From: Caldifarciminota bacterium
GTDB taxonomy: Bacteria > Hydrothermota > Tepidihabitantia > SM23-42
DNA: 64,000 nucleotides
Reading direction: 5' to 3'
NCBI GenBank assembly: GCA_027026255.1
Contig: JALVOT010000007.1
Coordinates: 1-64,000, forward strand
Within the stretch, counting starts at the first letter, position 1. Each line of letters starts with the position of its first letter. Positions 12,114 to 18,084 of the stretch are shown one piece after another. The notes under the pieces are model-generated. The model searched no databases. It was not told the origin of the DNA and saw only the letters and a program-made list of their open reading frames with translations. Position numbers and translations under genes: made by a program.

Positions 12114-12962
12114 TTAATGACAAACCGCACTCTTTTCTGCAATCTGCCAGGCTCTATTTGGTCTATACCCGTATGGGTTTTTAAAGAACTGAAATGCAGT
12201 AAAGAGTAAGGGCTTTGATTCCCGGTAATTATTCATCGGGTTAATTAAAATACCTCCGGTCATTTTAACAATATCCTTACTCCTGCCATTATAAGGAAAC
12301 CTTAATATCTTTCCCGGTATATAATCATTAGCAAAGATATTATCCCACAGAACAGGAGACCTTTTTAGAAGCCTGGTAATCTTTATAATATCAGCCTTAG
12401 TAATCCTTTTTGACACCACCCTATTTCCGGTCCAGAAGATACCAATCCTTTCATTCAATCTCTGACTGATTACCTTAATATATTCGGTCTCTTCAAAACC
12501 ACGATACTGGGTGGGACAGAAAAGAAGAACCGGATGCCGGAACCTTTTTGCCAGGAATTTATAGACCCCATTCAGAATTGAGGTCTGCATCATTGCTACT
12601 TCTTCAATTAATGGCACATTAATATCATCAAAGAAAATCGCGAACTCTTTTATACCTATATCCAGCATCAATCTTATCTTCTTAATTACTTTATTCAGAT
12701 CAGGATTTTTAGCTGGTGAAAGTGCATAGATAAACCTCACGCCATTTTTTTCTGCGTAATCATTTAATCTATCAAATTGTTCAAGTATCCTTTTTGGATA
12801 GGGAACCGCCCATCTCTGCCTGTGATAGGGGTCAGATTTCGGACCGTACAAATAGGTATTGGCACCACACTTTGAAAGGAACTTGATAAGATCACAGCGC
12901 TGTAAAAAGGTGTACGGTTTTCCATAAAAACCTTCAACAACACCAAATAATCTATCGGTCAT
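12114..12962 (-). CDS. GH84 O-GlcNAcase/hyaluronidase catalytic domain protein
   Basis: A 282-residue single-domain protein of glycoside hydrolase family 84 (beta-N-acetylglucosaminidase/protein O-GlcNAcase). It starts directly with FGVVEGFYGKPYT, then TYLYGPKSDPYHRQRW, and carries the tandem catalytic aspartates D112-D113 in AIFFDDIN, then FCPTQYRG and IFWTGNRVVS of the substrate site. GH84 uses substrate-assisted catalysis through the N-acetyl group. There is no signal peptide and no accessory domain, so it should be cytoplasmic, unlike the large secreted clostridial or Bacteroides forms. Its start overlaps the upstream coiled-coil gene by 11 bases; sppA lies before that. Confidence 0.85.
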   Translation of the reverse strand: MTDRLFGVVEGFYGKPYTFLQRCDLIKFLSKCGANTYLYGPKSDPYHRQRWAVPYPKRILEQFDRLNDYAEKNGVRFIYALSPAKNPDLNKVIKKIRLMLDIGIKEFAIFFDDINVPLIEEVAMMQTSILNGVYKFLAKRFRHPVLLFCPTQYRGFEETEYIKVISQRLNERIGIFWTGNRVVSKRITKADIIKITRLLKRSPVLWDNIFANDYIPGKILRFPYNGRSKDIVKMTGGILINPMNNYRESKPLLFTAFQFFKNPYGYRPNRAWQIAEKSAVCH

Positions 12963-14100: not shown

Positions 14101-14168
14101 GGTTTCGTTTTTCCAAACCCAAAGGTCTTCTCAGGGTAGATACCATCTCCTGGCCTCCTACAATTCAG

Positions 14169-14520
14169 CTGACTCCTCTCCACTTTTTGTCCTGGTTTTT
14201 GTAAGCTATGTTACGATATAGCCGAGGGGCGTCTCGCCCCGAGGCGGGAACGCCTGGCGAGCTGCCGGAGATTCTGAAACGAGTTAAGAATGACAAACCT
14301 CCAGCGGGCGGCGGGGACGCCGCCCGCGCTGAGAAAAATGGAGGCGTCTCCAGCACTGGTGAAAATTGAACCGATGACCAATAAAATAATACAAAAAAGA
14401 AGAACGAAGTTATTGAGTATTCTTCGCCCTGGTTTAATAATCTCACAGGAGTTCATTCTAACCAAAATGCCATTGCAATTAATTTCGGGAGACACAACGA
14501 AAAAAGTGGAGAGGAGTCAG
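14169..14520 (+). mobile_element. MITE-like element, copy 1
   Basis: A 352-base non-coding element with terminal inverted repeats (CTGACTCCTCTCCACTTTTT at the left, its complement at the right). It is flanked on both sides by the 9-base duplication ACAATTCAG (14160-14168 and 14521-14529). Inside are two GC-rich hairpins (around 14220-14245 and 14305-14330) and the widespread ATTCTTAACTCGTTTCAGAAT-type repeat in reverse. It has no transposase. The CTGACTC ends and 9-base duplication resemble the IS50/IS4-family type, which could supply the transposase in trans (inference). A diverged second copy lies inverted at 17390-17739. Confidence 0.85.
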
Positions 14521-14532
14521 ACAATTCAGGTA

Positions 14533-14560
14533 TTGACAAAATTCTATAGATGACTATATT
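14533..14560 (+). promoter_or_regulatory. Promoter of the SBBP gene
   Basis: TTGACA (14533-14538), 16 bases, TATATT (14555-14560). It begins 3 bases after the target duplication of MITE copy 1. The leader is about 85 bases and ends in GGAAGGAGG. Confidence 0.65.
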
Positions 14561-14650
14561 TTTATATATATTTATGAATCGGAATTTGGAAAAAGTTAAG
14601 GAAGATACATTTTTTTCGGAAATCTTTTTAAAAGACGGAAGGAGGATAAA

Positions 14651-17164
14651 ATGAATAATTTTCAAAGAATCATCAAAAGATTTGTTTTAGGAACTCTGGT
14701 TTTGGTTCCTTTTATGGGATATCCAGATGTGCCTGAACAAATGGTCAAAGATTGGCTTCACCGGGCTAACGGGTTTGAAGCCAATCAAGGTCAGATTAGT
14801 GATTTTAAAGGGAACCCGGTTAGTGAAGTTCTCTTTAGAGCCAATCTTCCAGGTTATTCAATCTTCATCACAGAAAGGGGAATAAGTTATGTCATCTATT
14901 CACCCGAAAATGATGATGCCTTTCAGACATTTAATACGCAGTTTGAAAATTCCAGACCTTCTAATGAATTCATTCATTATGCCCGAATCGATCTGGAACT
15001 TTTGAACTCACATATAGATAGGGATAATATTGAATTTTCTGATGAACTCCCCGGCTATACCAACTATTACTTACCAAATTGTTCTGATGGGGTGCTTTTT
15101 GTAAAAAGTTACCGAAGAATAAGAATTAAAGACATTTACCCCGGGATTGATTGGGTTTTCCGATACCAAAATGGCAAGTTACATCACGAGTTTGAAGTAG
15201 AACCGACTGCCGATGTAAATAATATAAAATTCAATGTTAGGTGGGCTGAGATTAAGATAAAAGAAGACGGCAAAAAACTTGTTTTTTCAACCCCGCTCGG
15301 GATAATAGAGGATGGCAGGATTTATGCCTATGAAGAAGGAAACAATAATTATCCGGATATTTCTTATAAGATAGTACAAGATAATTTGATTAGTTTTGAT
15401 GTAAAAAACTATTCTGGCAAAGGTAAACTCATAATCGACCCGCCCCTGGCACTTTTATGGGCAACCTATTACGGCGGCAGCGGAAATGATGAACTTTATT
15501 CAATCATCACGGACAGTTCGGGTAATATTTTTATATCAGGATGGACTCAATCAACCAATTTACCGGTTATGGATCCGGGCGGCGGTGCCTATTTTCAGGG
15601 GACATACAGCAGCGCTGATGATGGATTTATTTTGAAGTTCAATAAGAACGGTGTGCGGCAGTGGGCCACTTATTACGGGGGAAGCCGTTCTGAATCCTGT
15701 CGTTCGCTCACCCTCGATGATTCGGGTAATATTTTTGTAACTGGATGGACCTGGTCGAGTAATCTTCCACTTTATAATCCGGGCGGCGGTGCCTATTTTC
15801 AGGCAACGAATGCCGGATATTGCGATGTATTCATTTTGAAATTCAATAATGCCGGTGTGCGGCAGTGGGCCACTTATTACGGGGGCAGCGGTTATGATTA
15901 CGGCTACTCGATTACTGCTGATCGTTCAGGTAATATTCTTATCGAAGGCCATACAGAATCAAATAATTTCCCTCTCTACAACCCCGGTGGGGGAATTTAT
16001 TTCCAGGATACATATGCCGGCGGTTATGATCTGTTAATTTTAAAGTTCAGCAATACGGGCGTTCGGCAGTGGGCAACCTATTACGGCGGCAGCGGTTACG
16101 ATTACAACCGTTCAATTAAGGCAGACAATCTGAATAATATCTTTGTAACCGGATACACCAATTCATCTGATTTCCCGGTTCTCAATCCGGGCGGCGGAGT
16201 TTATTTCCAGGGGACAAATGCTGGCGGTGATGATGCGTTCATTTTAAAATTTATCAACGGCGGCGTGCGGCAGTGGGCCACTTATTACGGCGGAGCCGGA
16301 GATGATTATGGATGTTCAGTTACAAACAATAAAACGGGCGATATTTTCGTAGTGGGCTACACTTCTTCAGCTTACTTTCCAATTTATAATCCGGGCGGCG
16401 GTGCCTATTTTCAGGGCACGAATGCCGGAAACAGAGATGCCTTCATCTTGAAATTCAATAATACCGGTATGCGGCAGTGGGCCACTTATTACGGCGGGGC
16501 GGGGAATGATTACGGCTATTCAGTTGCTACTGATAAAACAGGCACTATTTTTATGGTCGGGAATACTTCGTCCGGTTATTTCCCGCTTTATAATCCGGGC
16601 GGCGGTGCCTATTTTCAGGAAACATTCGCAGGTATTATGGATGCATTCATTTTAAAATTTAGCAGCACTGGAGCAAGAGAGTGGGCGACATATTATGGCG
16701 GTTCCAAACAAGATTATGGATACTCAGTCACCACTGATATTTCCGGTAATATTCTGGTAGCCGGTGAAACCGCTTCGGGTAATTTCCCGCTTTATAATCC
16801 AGGCGGCGGTGCCTATTTTCAGGGCACGAATGCCGGTTCTTCCGATGCATACATCTTGAAATTCGAAACTTCCGTGGGCGTAAATGAAATTGATAAATCA
16901 GAAATCAAAAATATTTTCTTCTGGACACCGACATTCTTTAAAAACGAATTACCGTTGAAAATCAGCGGCTGCACAAAAAAACCCGTTAAAATAGTCTTAT
17001 ACAACTTATCCGGTTCAAAAGTTTTAGAAACGGTTTTCCCCTCATCCACATCCCCTGTCATCAAAAATATAAAGACAAAGCAACTACCATCGGGTATCTA
17101 CTTTTTAGAAGTCCATTACGGAAAGAAAAATATAGGTTACACAAAAGTCATAAAGCTAATGTAA
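14651..17164 (+). CDS. SBBP repeat beta-propeller protein with sorting domain
   Basis: An 837-residue secreted protein. It has a signal peptide (about 1-25) and an N-terminal beta domain (about 35-260; FEANQGQ, GISYVIYSPE, YPGIDWVFRYQNG) of the kind found before SBBP repeats. Seven repeats of exactly 68 residues follow, each beginning WATYYGG and containing LYNPGGGAYFQGTNAG, at about residues 270, 338, 406, 474, 542, 610 and 678. These should form a seven-bladed beta-propeller. The C-terminus (about 755-837) resembles a type-A type-IX-secretion sorting domain (LYNLSGSKVLET, LPSGIYFLEV). It is likely cell-surface or secreted; ligand unknown. The ribosome site is GGAAGGAGG. Confidence 0.85.
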   Translation: MNNFQRIIKRFVLGTLVLVPFMGYPDVPEQMVKDWLHRANGFEANQGQISDFKGNPVSEVLFRANLPGYSIFITERGISYVIYSPENDDAFQTFNTQFENSRPSNEFIHYARIDLELLNSHIDRDNIEFSDELPGYTNYYLPNCSDGVLFVKSYRRIRIKDIYPGIDWVFRYQNGKLHHEFEVEPTADVNNIKFNVRWAEIKIKEDGKKLVFSTPLGIIEDGRIYAYEEGNNNYPDISYKIVQDNLISFDVKNYSGKGKLIIDPPLALLWATYYGGSGNDELYSIITDSSGNIFISGWTQSTNLPVMDPGGGAYFQGTYSSADDGFILKFNKNGVRQWATYYGGSRSESCRSLTLDDSGNIFVTGWTWSSNLPLYNPGGGAYFQATNAGYCDVFILKFNNAGVRQWATYYGGSGYDYGYSITADRSGNILIEGHTESNNFPLYNPGGGIYFQDTYAGGYDLLILKFSNTGVRQWATYYGGSGYDYNRSIKADNLNNIFVTGYTNSSDFPVLNPGGGVYFQGTNAGGDDAFILKFINGGVRQWATYYGGAGDDYGCSVTNNKTGDIFVVGYTSSAYFPIYNPGGGAYFQGTNAGNRDAFILKFNNTGMRQWATYYGGAGNDYGYSVATDKTGTIFMVGNTSSGYFPLYNPGGGAYFQETFAGIMDAFILKFSSTGAREWATYYGGSKQDYGYSVTTDISGNILVAGETASGNFPLYNPGGGAYFQGTNAGSSDAYILKFETSVGVNEIDKSEIKNIFFWTPTFFKNELPLKISGCTKKPVKIVLYNLSGSKVLETVFPSSTSPVIKNIKTKQLPSGIYFLEVHYGKKNIGYTKVIKLM
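15458..16864 (+). repeat. Seven 204-bp tandem coding repeats
   Basis: Repeat units start at 15458, 15662, 15866, 16070, 16274, 16478 and 16682, each 204 bases, with no indels between units. DNA identity is high in blocks such as GGGCGGCGGTGCCTATTTTCAG, which suggests recent amplification or gene conversion. The variable part of each unit is the loop after WATYYGG. Confidence 0.85.
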
Positions 17165-17389
17165 AAGATTTTAACGAAATACTCAGAAAACGATATCCTG
17201 ATATTGTATTTAAAGAATGCGGGTATCGGATATGCATTCTGAATAAATTAGTAAAATTGTAGCACAGCAGGTTTCGTGCAACGAAAATTTTCCATCTGCT
17301 GCTGCGATACCCCGTTTCTCTGATACAGTATCTCTGCACTTCCCGGATATCATTTTCCCCGGCCGTTTCTCAGCACTCACGGCACAGCT

Positions 17390-17739
17390 GATTCCTCTCC
17401 ACTTTTTTCATTATGCCTCCTTGATTAATTGCAACGGTATTCTGGACAGAATAAACTTCCCTGAGATTATTAAACTAAGACGAAAAATATTCAACAACTT
17501 CGTTTTACTTTTTTTATGTTATTTATTGGTCATTTGAAAAATTTCTCTACCATCTTCGCCCGGTTCCATTTTTCTCAGCGCGGGCGGCGTCCCCGCCGCC
17601 CGCTGGAGGTTTATCATTCTTAACTCGTTTCAGAATCTCCGGCAGCTCGCCGGGCGTTCCTGCCTCGGGGCGAGACGCCCCTCGGCTATATTGTAACATA
17701 GTTTACAAAAAACCGGGACAAAAAGTGGAGAGGAGTCAG
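17390..17739 (-). mobile_element. MITE-like element, copy 2 (inverted)
   Basis: A 350-base element in opposite orientation to copy 1. Its reverse complement aligns with copy 1 along the whole length, including the TIR, both GC-rich hairpins and the ATTCTTAACTCGTTTCAGAAT repeat. The target duplication is the 8-base CGGCACAG (17382-17389 and 17740-17747). One end holds AAGGAGGCATAATG, a ribosome site and ATG pointing outward; copy 1 has ACG there. No transposase is present. The stretch 17165-17381 before it holds only a short coding-like fragment and no clear gene. Confidence 0.85.
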
Positions 17740-17750
17740 CGGCACAGCCC

Positions 17751-17778
17751 TTGACTACCCATTAGATTTATATATAAT
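17751..17778 (+). promoter_or_regulatory. Promoter of DUF3467 gene
   Basis: TTGACT (17751-17756), 16 bases, TATAAT (17773-17778), then 15 bases with AAGGAG before the ATG at 17794. The -35 lies 3 bases after the target duplication of MITE copy 2. Confidence 0.75.
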
Positions 17779-17793
17779 TGCACAAGGAGAAAA

Positions 17794-18084
17794 ATGATGA
17801 ACGAAAAAAAAGCACCAATAAATATTGAGATAAGCCCGGAGCAATCCGAAGGGATTTATTCGAACTTTGTTCTTATAGCCCATTCACCCTCTGAATTTAT
17901 CCTGGATTTTGCCCGAATGCTTCCTGGTCTGCAAAAAGCCAAAGTCTTTACACGCATCATAATGACACCTCAAAATGCTGCTCTCCTTAAAAATGCCTTA
18001 GATGAAAATCTTAAAAAATATGAGGAGCGATTTGGAAAAATTAAAATCTTCGGTAAAGCAGAAAAAGAAATCGGTTTTAAATAA
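17794..18084 (+). CDS. DUF3467 family protein
   Basis: A 96-residue protein matching DUF3467. It contains IEISPEQSEGIYSNFVLIAHSPSEFILDF, here cited as the region at residues about 11-40, followed by ARMLPGLQKAKVFTRIIMTP and a helical tail. The family is small, soluble and of unknown function, often encoded near housekeeping genes. Its end overlaps the CCA-transferase start region, so it is probably translationally coupled to it. Confidence 0.8.
   Translation: MMNEKKAPINIEISPEQSEGIYSNFVLIAHSPSEFILDFARMLPGLQKAKVFTRIIMTPQNAALLKNALDENLKKYEERFGKIKIFGKAEKEIGFK

Follow-up and report, generated by a model that had tools for sequence, protein, structure and literature searches.

The window analysed here is a stretch of 64,000 nucleotides from a candidate-division WOR-3 bacterium (G000; 2.1 Mb, 18 contigs), in which two copies of a MITE each lie just upstream of a promoter. 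The locus raises the question of whether the element chose these positions, brought the promoters with it, or was kept by selection only where it did no harm. According to the original prediction, the target duplications of both MITEs end 3 bp before a -35 hexamer, and different ends of the element face the two promoters. Both statements turned out to be correct: the coordinates were confirmed for both copies, which lie in opposite orientation and are 85% identical.

Two MITEs and Their Promoters

The features of the locus are the following.

14160..14168 (left) and 14521..14529 (right): target duplication of MITE copy 1, ACAATTCAG, 9 bp
14169..14520, + strand: MITE copy 1, 352 bp, with perfect 20-bp TIRs CTGACTCCTCTCCACTTTTT
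14533..14538, + strand: -35 hexamer of promoter 1, TTGACA, separated by GTA (3 bp) from the right duplication of copy 1
14555..14560, + strand: -10 hexamer of promoter 1, TATATT, at N16 spacing
14651..17164, + strand: 837-aa gene downstream of promoter 1, with seven 204-nt repeats, propeller-like
17380..17387 (left) and 17740..17747 (right): target duplication of MITE copy 2, CGGCACAG, 8 bp
17388..17739, - strand: MITE copy 2, 352 bp, inverted relative to copy 1
17751..17756, + strand: -35 hexamer of promoter 2, TTGACT, separated by CCC (3 bp) from the right duplication of copy 2
17773..17778, + strand: -10 hexamer of promoter 2, TATAAT, at N16 spacing; this promoter is kept in element-free orthologous WOR-3 loci
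17794..18084, + strand: gene for 96 aa that follows promoter 2 and is conserved across WOR-3 genomes

The 837-aa gene sits between the two MITEs; the repeats of its protein are direct and its start is signal-like. On the reverse strand, the ORF at 12114-12962 looks by eye like a glycoside hydrolase of the N-acetylglucosaminidase type.

Origin of the Elements

The elements have the features of MITEs, as they are about 350 bp long, lack a transposase, share the TIRs of a full element, are flanked by duplications and occur in many copies. The window MITEs arose by deletion from an insertion sequence of the IS4 family whose transposase has the Tn5 fold. The right 134 bp of the MITE is 78% identical to the 3' end and TIR of a truncated IS4-family transposase gene of the same genome. 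This 5'-truncated copy (C1:46.6-47.5 kb) is the only one left there, and intact or near-intact copies were found in relatives. A long ORF on the reverse strand (L060:2505-4850), at whose end the truncated copy lies, resembles by eye a lanthionine synthetase of the LanM type.

The transposase has 365 aa and matched PF01609 (DDE_Tnp_1) with 51-54 bits (cut-off 23). With the IS4 transposase model NF033591, one protein (L123) scored 159.8 bits against a cut-off of 152, and another (L227) was just under it at 146.2. The Y-(2)-R-(3)-E-(6)-K signature (Y264, R267, E271, K278) was invariant in 20 aligned transposases. The AlphaFold model (pLDDT 86) gave the Tn5 transposase as its best PDB matches (1muh, 3ecp, 1mus; E 5e-12), and no obvious extra domain was seen beyond the Tn5-like core. 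The 20-bp TIRs and the mainly 9-bp duplication are also those of the IS4 family. The symmetrical 9-bp target consensus of the IS10 group, NGCTNAGCN, was absent from the base frequencies of the duplications. In the transposase tree, which did not include IS10 itself, the deep forks were weakly supported and the branches long.

Distribution of Copies in the Host Genome

In the host genome, for which the analysis was based on sequence stretches around the elements, the MITE had 48 BLAST matches, and 91 ends were obtained by searching for the TIR. When the ends were oriented outward, TTGAC was located exactly 12 nt outward at 41 of the 85 well-matched ends, and at 0 or 1 end at every other offset from 0 to 68; about 0.1 would be expected by chance at one given offset. 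An offset of 12 corresponds to the 9-bp duplication plus 3 bp. TATAAT peaked at offset 34 (24 ends), which is the N16 spacing. As normally one end per element faces a promoter, the ceiling for targeted ends is about half. A whole-genome count of the distances from copies to promoters had been proposed earlier, with random distances speaking against the prediction; no such scatter appeared.

Under a lenient rule, 31 of the 34 paired elements had a promoter in register, facing the left end in 17 cases and the right end in 14, so that the element is indifferent to which of its ends faces the promoter. Two of the remaining three are without a duplication and look recombined, and the third (C18:198551) is a true exception. 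Where a duplication was present, it measured 9 bp in 23 of 24 elements, the exception being copy 2 of the window (8 bp).

These counts bear on the reading by which insertion is random and selection keeps only gene-sparing copies upstream of promoters. Purifying selection does predict an intergenic location, and many of the downstream genes start close behind their promoter. However, it does not account for a distance fixed to one base while equally harmless sites 20-60 bp further upstream are unoccupied, nor for a promoter hit three times independently at 11-12 nt (see below). This highly improbable reading is refuted by the offset profile.

Some copies deserve separate mention. Three elements (C4:11853-12091, C9:117618-117997 and C17:123977-124359) have no target duplication and a promoter in register on both sides; such copies, like the promoterless ones, look like products of recombination between elements with one promoter side each, or of chimeric assembly. 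Three copies on C4 (332, 24559 and 27693) share an identical outer flank, a sign of duplication or of inter-copy recombination. Lone decayed TIR ends, with the rest of the element lost or unrecognisable, still lie 12 nt from a -35 at C2:36727, C4:17471, C7:70512, C14:38341, C15:42547, C17:3725 and C18:48520.

Nature of the Target

In the own-genome sequence examined, with intergenic and coding classes assigned by a simple ORF mask, a -10 hexamer matching at least 5/6 positions accompanied 41 of 43 element-adjacent TTGACs (95%), 56 of 108 other intergenic TTGACs (52%) and 20 of 427 coding ones. The difference between targeted and other intergenic TTGACs was clear (Fisher p = 6e-8), and targeting to TTGAC alone was rejected as insufficient against both controls. 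Thus, a promoter is required. Since promoters with N17 spacing keep the 12-nt distance to the -35, it is the -35 that acts as the anchor. Degenerate -35s (TTGATT, TTGAAA, TTTACA, TTGTCA, TTGCAA) are used, with the register kept, if the -10 is good. TTGACA is enriched at targets (31/44 vs 30/95 control promoters), and C is weakly preferred at position -1, directly ahead of the -35. The base frequencies of the duplicated 9 bp show no strong consensus. Taken together, it is close to certain that the elements are targeted to sigma-70-type promoters and anchored on the -35. The usual -35/-10 spacing in this genome is 16 bp and not 17 bp (49/56 intergenic cases in the sequence examined).

The promoter of the 96-aa gene allowed us to ascertain which came first. 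In many WOR-3 genomes it stands, free of any element, at about 100 nt before the same codon, and it was hit independently in three genera. In the host genome, the element lies at offset 11 before it. In G015, the element is at offset 12, and the same-genus species G002 and G012 have empty sites. In G023, the element is also at offset 12 (-35 = TTGATT), and the same-genus G024 and G026 are empty; their sites carry, as seen by eye, a TTGATT-type -35 too. These empty orthologous sites, together with the duplications, identify the copies as true insertions.

The original prediction held that the element did not bring the promoter in, and this was confirmed, because the promoter is also present at orthologous loci that lack the element. 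That the element carries a promoter, or that element and promoter move as one cassette, would explain why nearly every copy adjoins a promoter. Yet the target duplication does not include the promoter, the sequences past the duplication vary from copy to copy, and either end can face the promoter. The offset profile and the empty orthologous sites refute this reading, which is hardly conceivable.

Other WOR-3 Genomes

The rule was followed in seven other WOR-3 genomes (fragmented assemblies for the most part, including at least one metagenome-assembled genome) from the same family and from other families of the order and class. There, TTGAC was at offset 12 in 71 of 146 fetched TIR ends, and other offsets were at or near background. 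Across the eight genomes, including that of the host, 87 paired elements had distinct flanks, and 78 of them showed TTGA at offset 9-15 on at least one side. Among the elements with a target duplication, the proportion was 50 of 53, nearly all at the length of the duplication plus 3; one of the three non-followers has TTTACA with an in-register -10. The offset tracks the length of the duplication (8 bp gives 11, 9 gives 12, 10 gives 13), and the spacing is exact. A second TIR family (G024, G026), whose transposase is 43% identical, obeys the same rule. In a phylum-wide scan, TIR-N12-TTGAC-N17-TATAAT was present in 16 of 147 genomes, and the reversed control gave zero.

An element of G002 (contig C108), with no promoter in register, is at offset 4. 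In another genome (G011:C109; L144, 408-642), a 10-bp duplication is followed by TTGACA 3 bp beyond on both sides, which fits an insertion between two divergent promoters that satisfies the rule in both directions.

Distant Relatives

Outside WOR-3, the ends of elements were located by TIR and duplication, by sequence reading or by TIR match. At each of the 8 independent sites with intact flanks on Thermus and Meiothermus plasmids, the ISTth2-like element had TTGAC 12-13 nt beyond one of its ends. Where the duplication was known (9 or 10 bp), the distance was again the duplication plus 3 (10 gives 13 in Thermus). The -10s of these Thermaceae sites are weaker matches, mostly 4/6. The ISTth2 copy of strain HB27 (L330), whose right flank is occupied by another transposase gene, was considered as an exception and rejected, since the same insertion in strain HC11 (L342) has TTGACG at 12.

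Among the few cases from the Chloroflexi, three elements (L234, L240, L245) had a distance of 10, and for L234 and L240 the duplication seems to be 7 bp long. TTGTCA at 11 in L231 is similar, and a Bipolaricaulota element (L235) has TTGACT at 10-11. The Chloroflexi and Bipolaricaulota relatives are 25-28% identical. The rule is thus conserved across several phyla. No in-register TTGAC was found in the proteobacterial relatives (Legionella, Gallionella, Azotobacter, Oceanisphaera, Vibrio and others) and the Hydrogenedentota element for which ends and duplications had been identified, nor in the cyanobacterial relatives sampled. Viral contigs and phage records gave no confirmed relative.

The claim that the target was chosen, first made from the two window copies, now stands on the 87 distinct paired WOR-3 elements, on the second TIR family and on the geometry shared by Thermaceae, Chloroflexi and Bipolaricaulota.

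How the Target May Be Found

Selection cannot set a one-base distance and the promoter was not carried in; what remains is recognition of the target by the transpososome. The original prediction had named promoter DNA or bound RNA polymerase/sigma factor as the target. Its first part, targeting to promoters, is supported; as to the second, we infer that the polymerase is a likelier guide than the promoter DNA, because an in-register -10 is required and the duplicated bases have no strong consensus.

The transpososome probably docks on the promoter-bound RNA polymerase holoenzyme. The promoter-proximal strand-transfer site is fixed 3 bp upstream of the -35 on sigma-70-type promoters, and the stagger of 7-10 bp, usually 9, extends upstream from this cut. 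The region upstream of the -35 corresponds to the proximal UP subsite, where the alpha C-terminal domain makes contact beside sigma region 4, and it overlaps the class II activator site. The transpososome would dock close to these two parts of the polymerase and would occupy the space otherwise taken by the proximal UP subsite or by a class II activator. Insertion would take place on the outer face of the holoenzyme complex and leave the -35, the -10 and the gene intact. Such docking would explain why both hexamers are needed and weak -35s are tolerated, why neither the duplicated sequence nor the orientation of the element matters, and why the rule has persisted in distant hosts, which have sigma-70-type promoters in common. 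As the transposase is without an obvious extra domain, the contact would need an ordinary surface patch. The physical contact, its surface and the benefit of harmless landing sites are what we infer here. We also lean, a little less firmly, towards a multi-phylum IS4-family group that would be guided by the promoter-bound holoenzyme through docking similar to that of a class II activator, with the rule kept from WOR-3 to Thermus and Chloroflexi.

Some observations stand against docking on the holoenzyme. A transposase that reads the -35 plus -10 DNA itself would leave the same footprint, the weak preferences for C at -1 and for TTGACA over weaker -35s could mean some direct reading, and a few elements (C18:198551 and that of G002:C108) lie without an in-register promoter. 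The main rival is direct reading, in which the transposase itself, independently of any polymerase, would recognise TTGAC at about 12 bp from the cut and perhaps the AT-rich -10 as well. The -35 is the anchor whether the spacing is N16 or N17, and this speaks for direct reading, as do the enrichment of TTGACA, the weak preference for C at -1 and the resemblance of the TIR tip CTGAC to TTGAC. However, TTGAC is insufficient without the in-register -10, TTGATT, TTTACA, TTGTCA and TTGCAA sites are used given a good -10, and it is the sigma factor that reads a motif of two parts set 16-17 bp apart. We hold this rival to be doubtful.

Improbable, too, is a targeting through the DNA state of active promoters (supercoiling, bending by nucleoid proteins, melted DNA) and not through contact with a protein. 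Target choice by supercoiling or DNA structure has been discussed for Tn5-like elements. Nevertheless, a diffuse state would hardly give a distance to the -35 that is exact to one base in promoters of either spacing (N16 or N17), and this precision spans hosts from AT-rich WOR-3 to GC-rich Thermus.

Docking on the holoenzyme would also account for the harmlessness of the insertions. The near-invariable landing 3 bp upstream suggests that the target is found via the transcription machinery of the cell, and for this reason the element would land where damage is small.

Comparison with Known Systems

Bacterial DDE transposons are usually thought to pick targets by short sequence or DNA shape. IS10/Tn10 is of the IS4 family and shares with the WOR-3 element the 9-bp duplication and a TIR beginning CTGA. 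IS10 prefers a symmetrical target (NGCTNAGCN), whereas the determinant of the WOR-3 element is located outside the duplicated 9 bp. IS50/Tn5 (TIR CTGACTC) has the same transposase fold, the Y-R-E-K signature and a 9-bp duplication, but the identity is about 13% in the structural alignment and the WOR-3 transposase is shorter. To our knowledge, no promoter-anchored target rule is known for Tn5.

The RNA polymerase of Thermus thermophilus is a standard structural model, and because ISTth2 lives in this bacterium, a tethering of the transposase to RNA polymerase would be directly testable. ISTth2 encodes a DDE transposase of the same size (365 aa), makes a 9-10 bp duplication, has a TIR starting with CTGAG and, as found here, TTGAC 12-13 nt outside one end. 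It differs by an amino-acid identity of 29%, and no MITE burst was seen for it. A survey places it in the IS4 family, IS10 sub-group, with DR 9, and makes no mention of promoter targeting (PMC6352166).

Correia elements are bacterial MITEs which, like those described here, are short, non-coding, bounded by TIRs, intergenic and near genes (PMC10969869). Unlike the WOR-3 MITE, which leaves a pre-existing promoter just outside, they bring along promoters or regulator sites of their own.

In the open-access literature searched, we found no earlier report of promoter-anchored integration by such transposons. As far as this literature shows, its occurrence in a group of bacterial DDE transposons is new. 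Each insertion marks a likely working promoter, also in uncultured bacteria without transcript data. Landing at promoters with base-pair accuracy, on the side where the gene is spared, would illustrate how selfish DNA persists when the genome is compact.

The closest parallel is found in yeast, where the Pol III machinery determines the positions upstream of genes into which the retrotransposons Ty1 and Ty3 integrate (PMC10050235, PMC8632968). A fixed position relative to promoters, with the gene left intact, is common to both systems. Ty1 and Ty3 use a retrotransposon integrase and eukaryotic Pol III, and their contact has been solved structurally, whereas a contact of the WOR-3 transposase is proposed here. 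By analogy, the WOR-3 element would work like Ty1 and Ty3, landing beside transcription complexes with the gene unharmed, but it is no member of their group. If true, it would be a bacterial counterpart of Ty1/Ty3 targeting.
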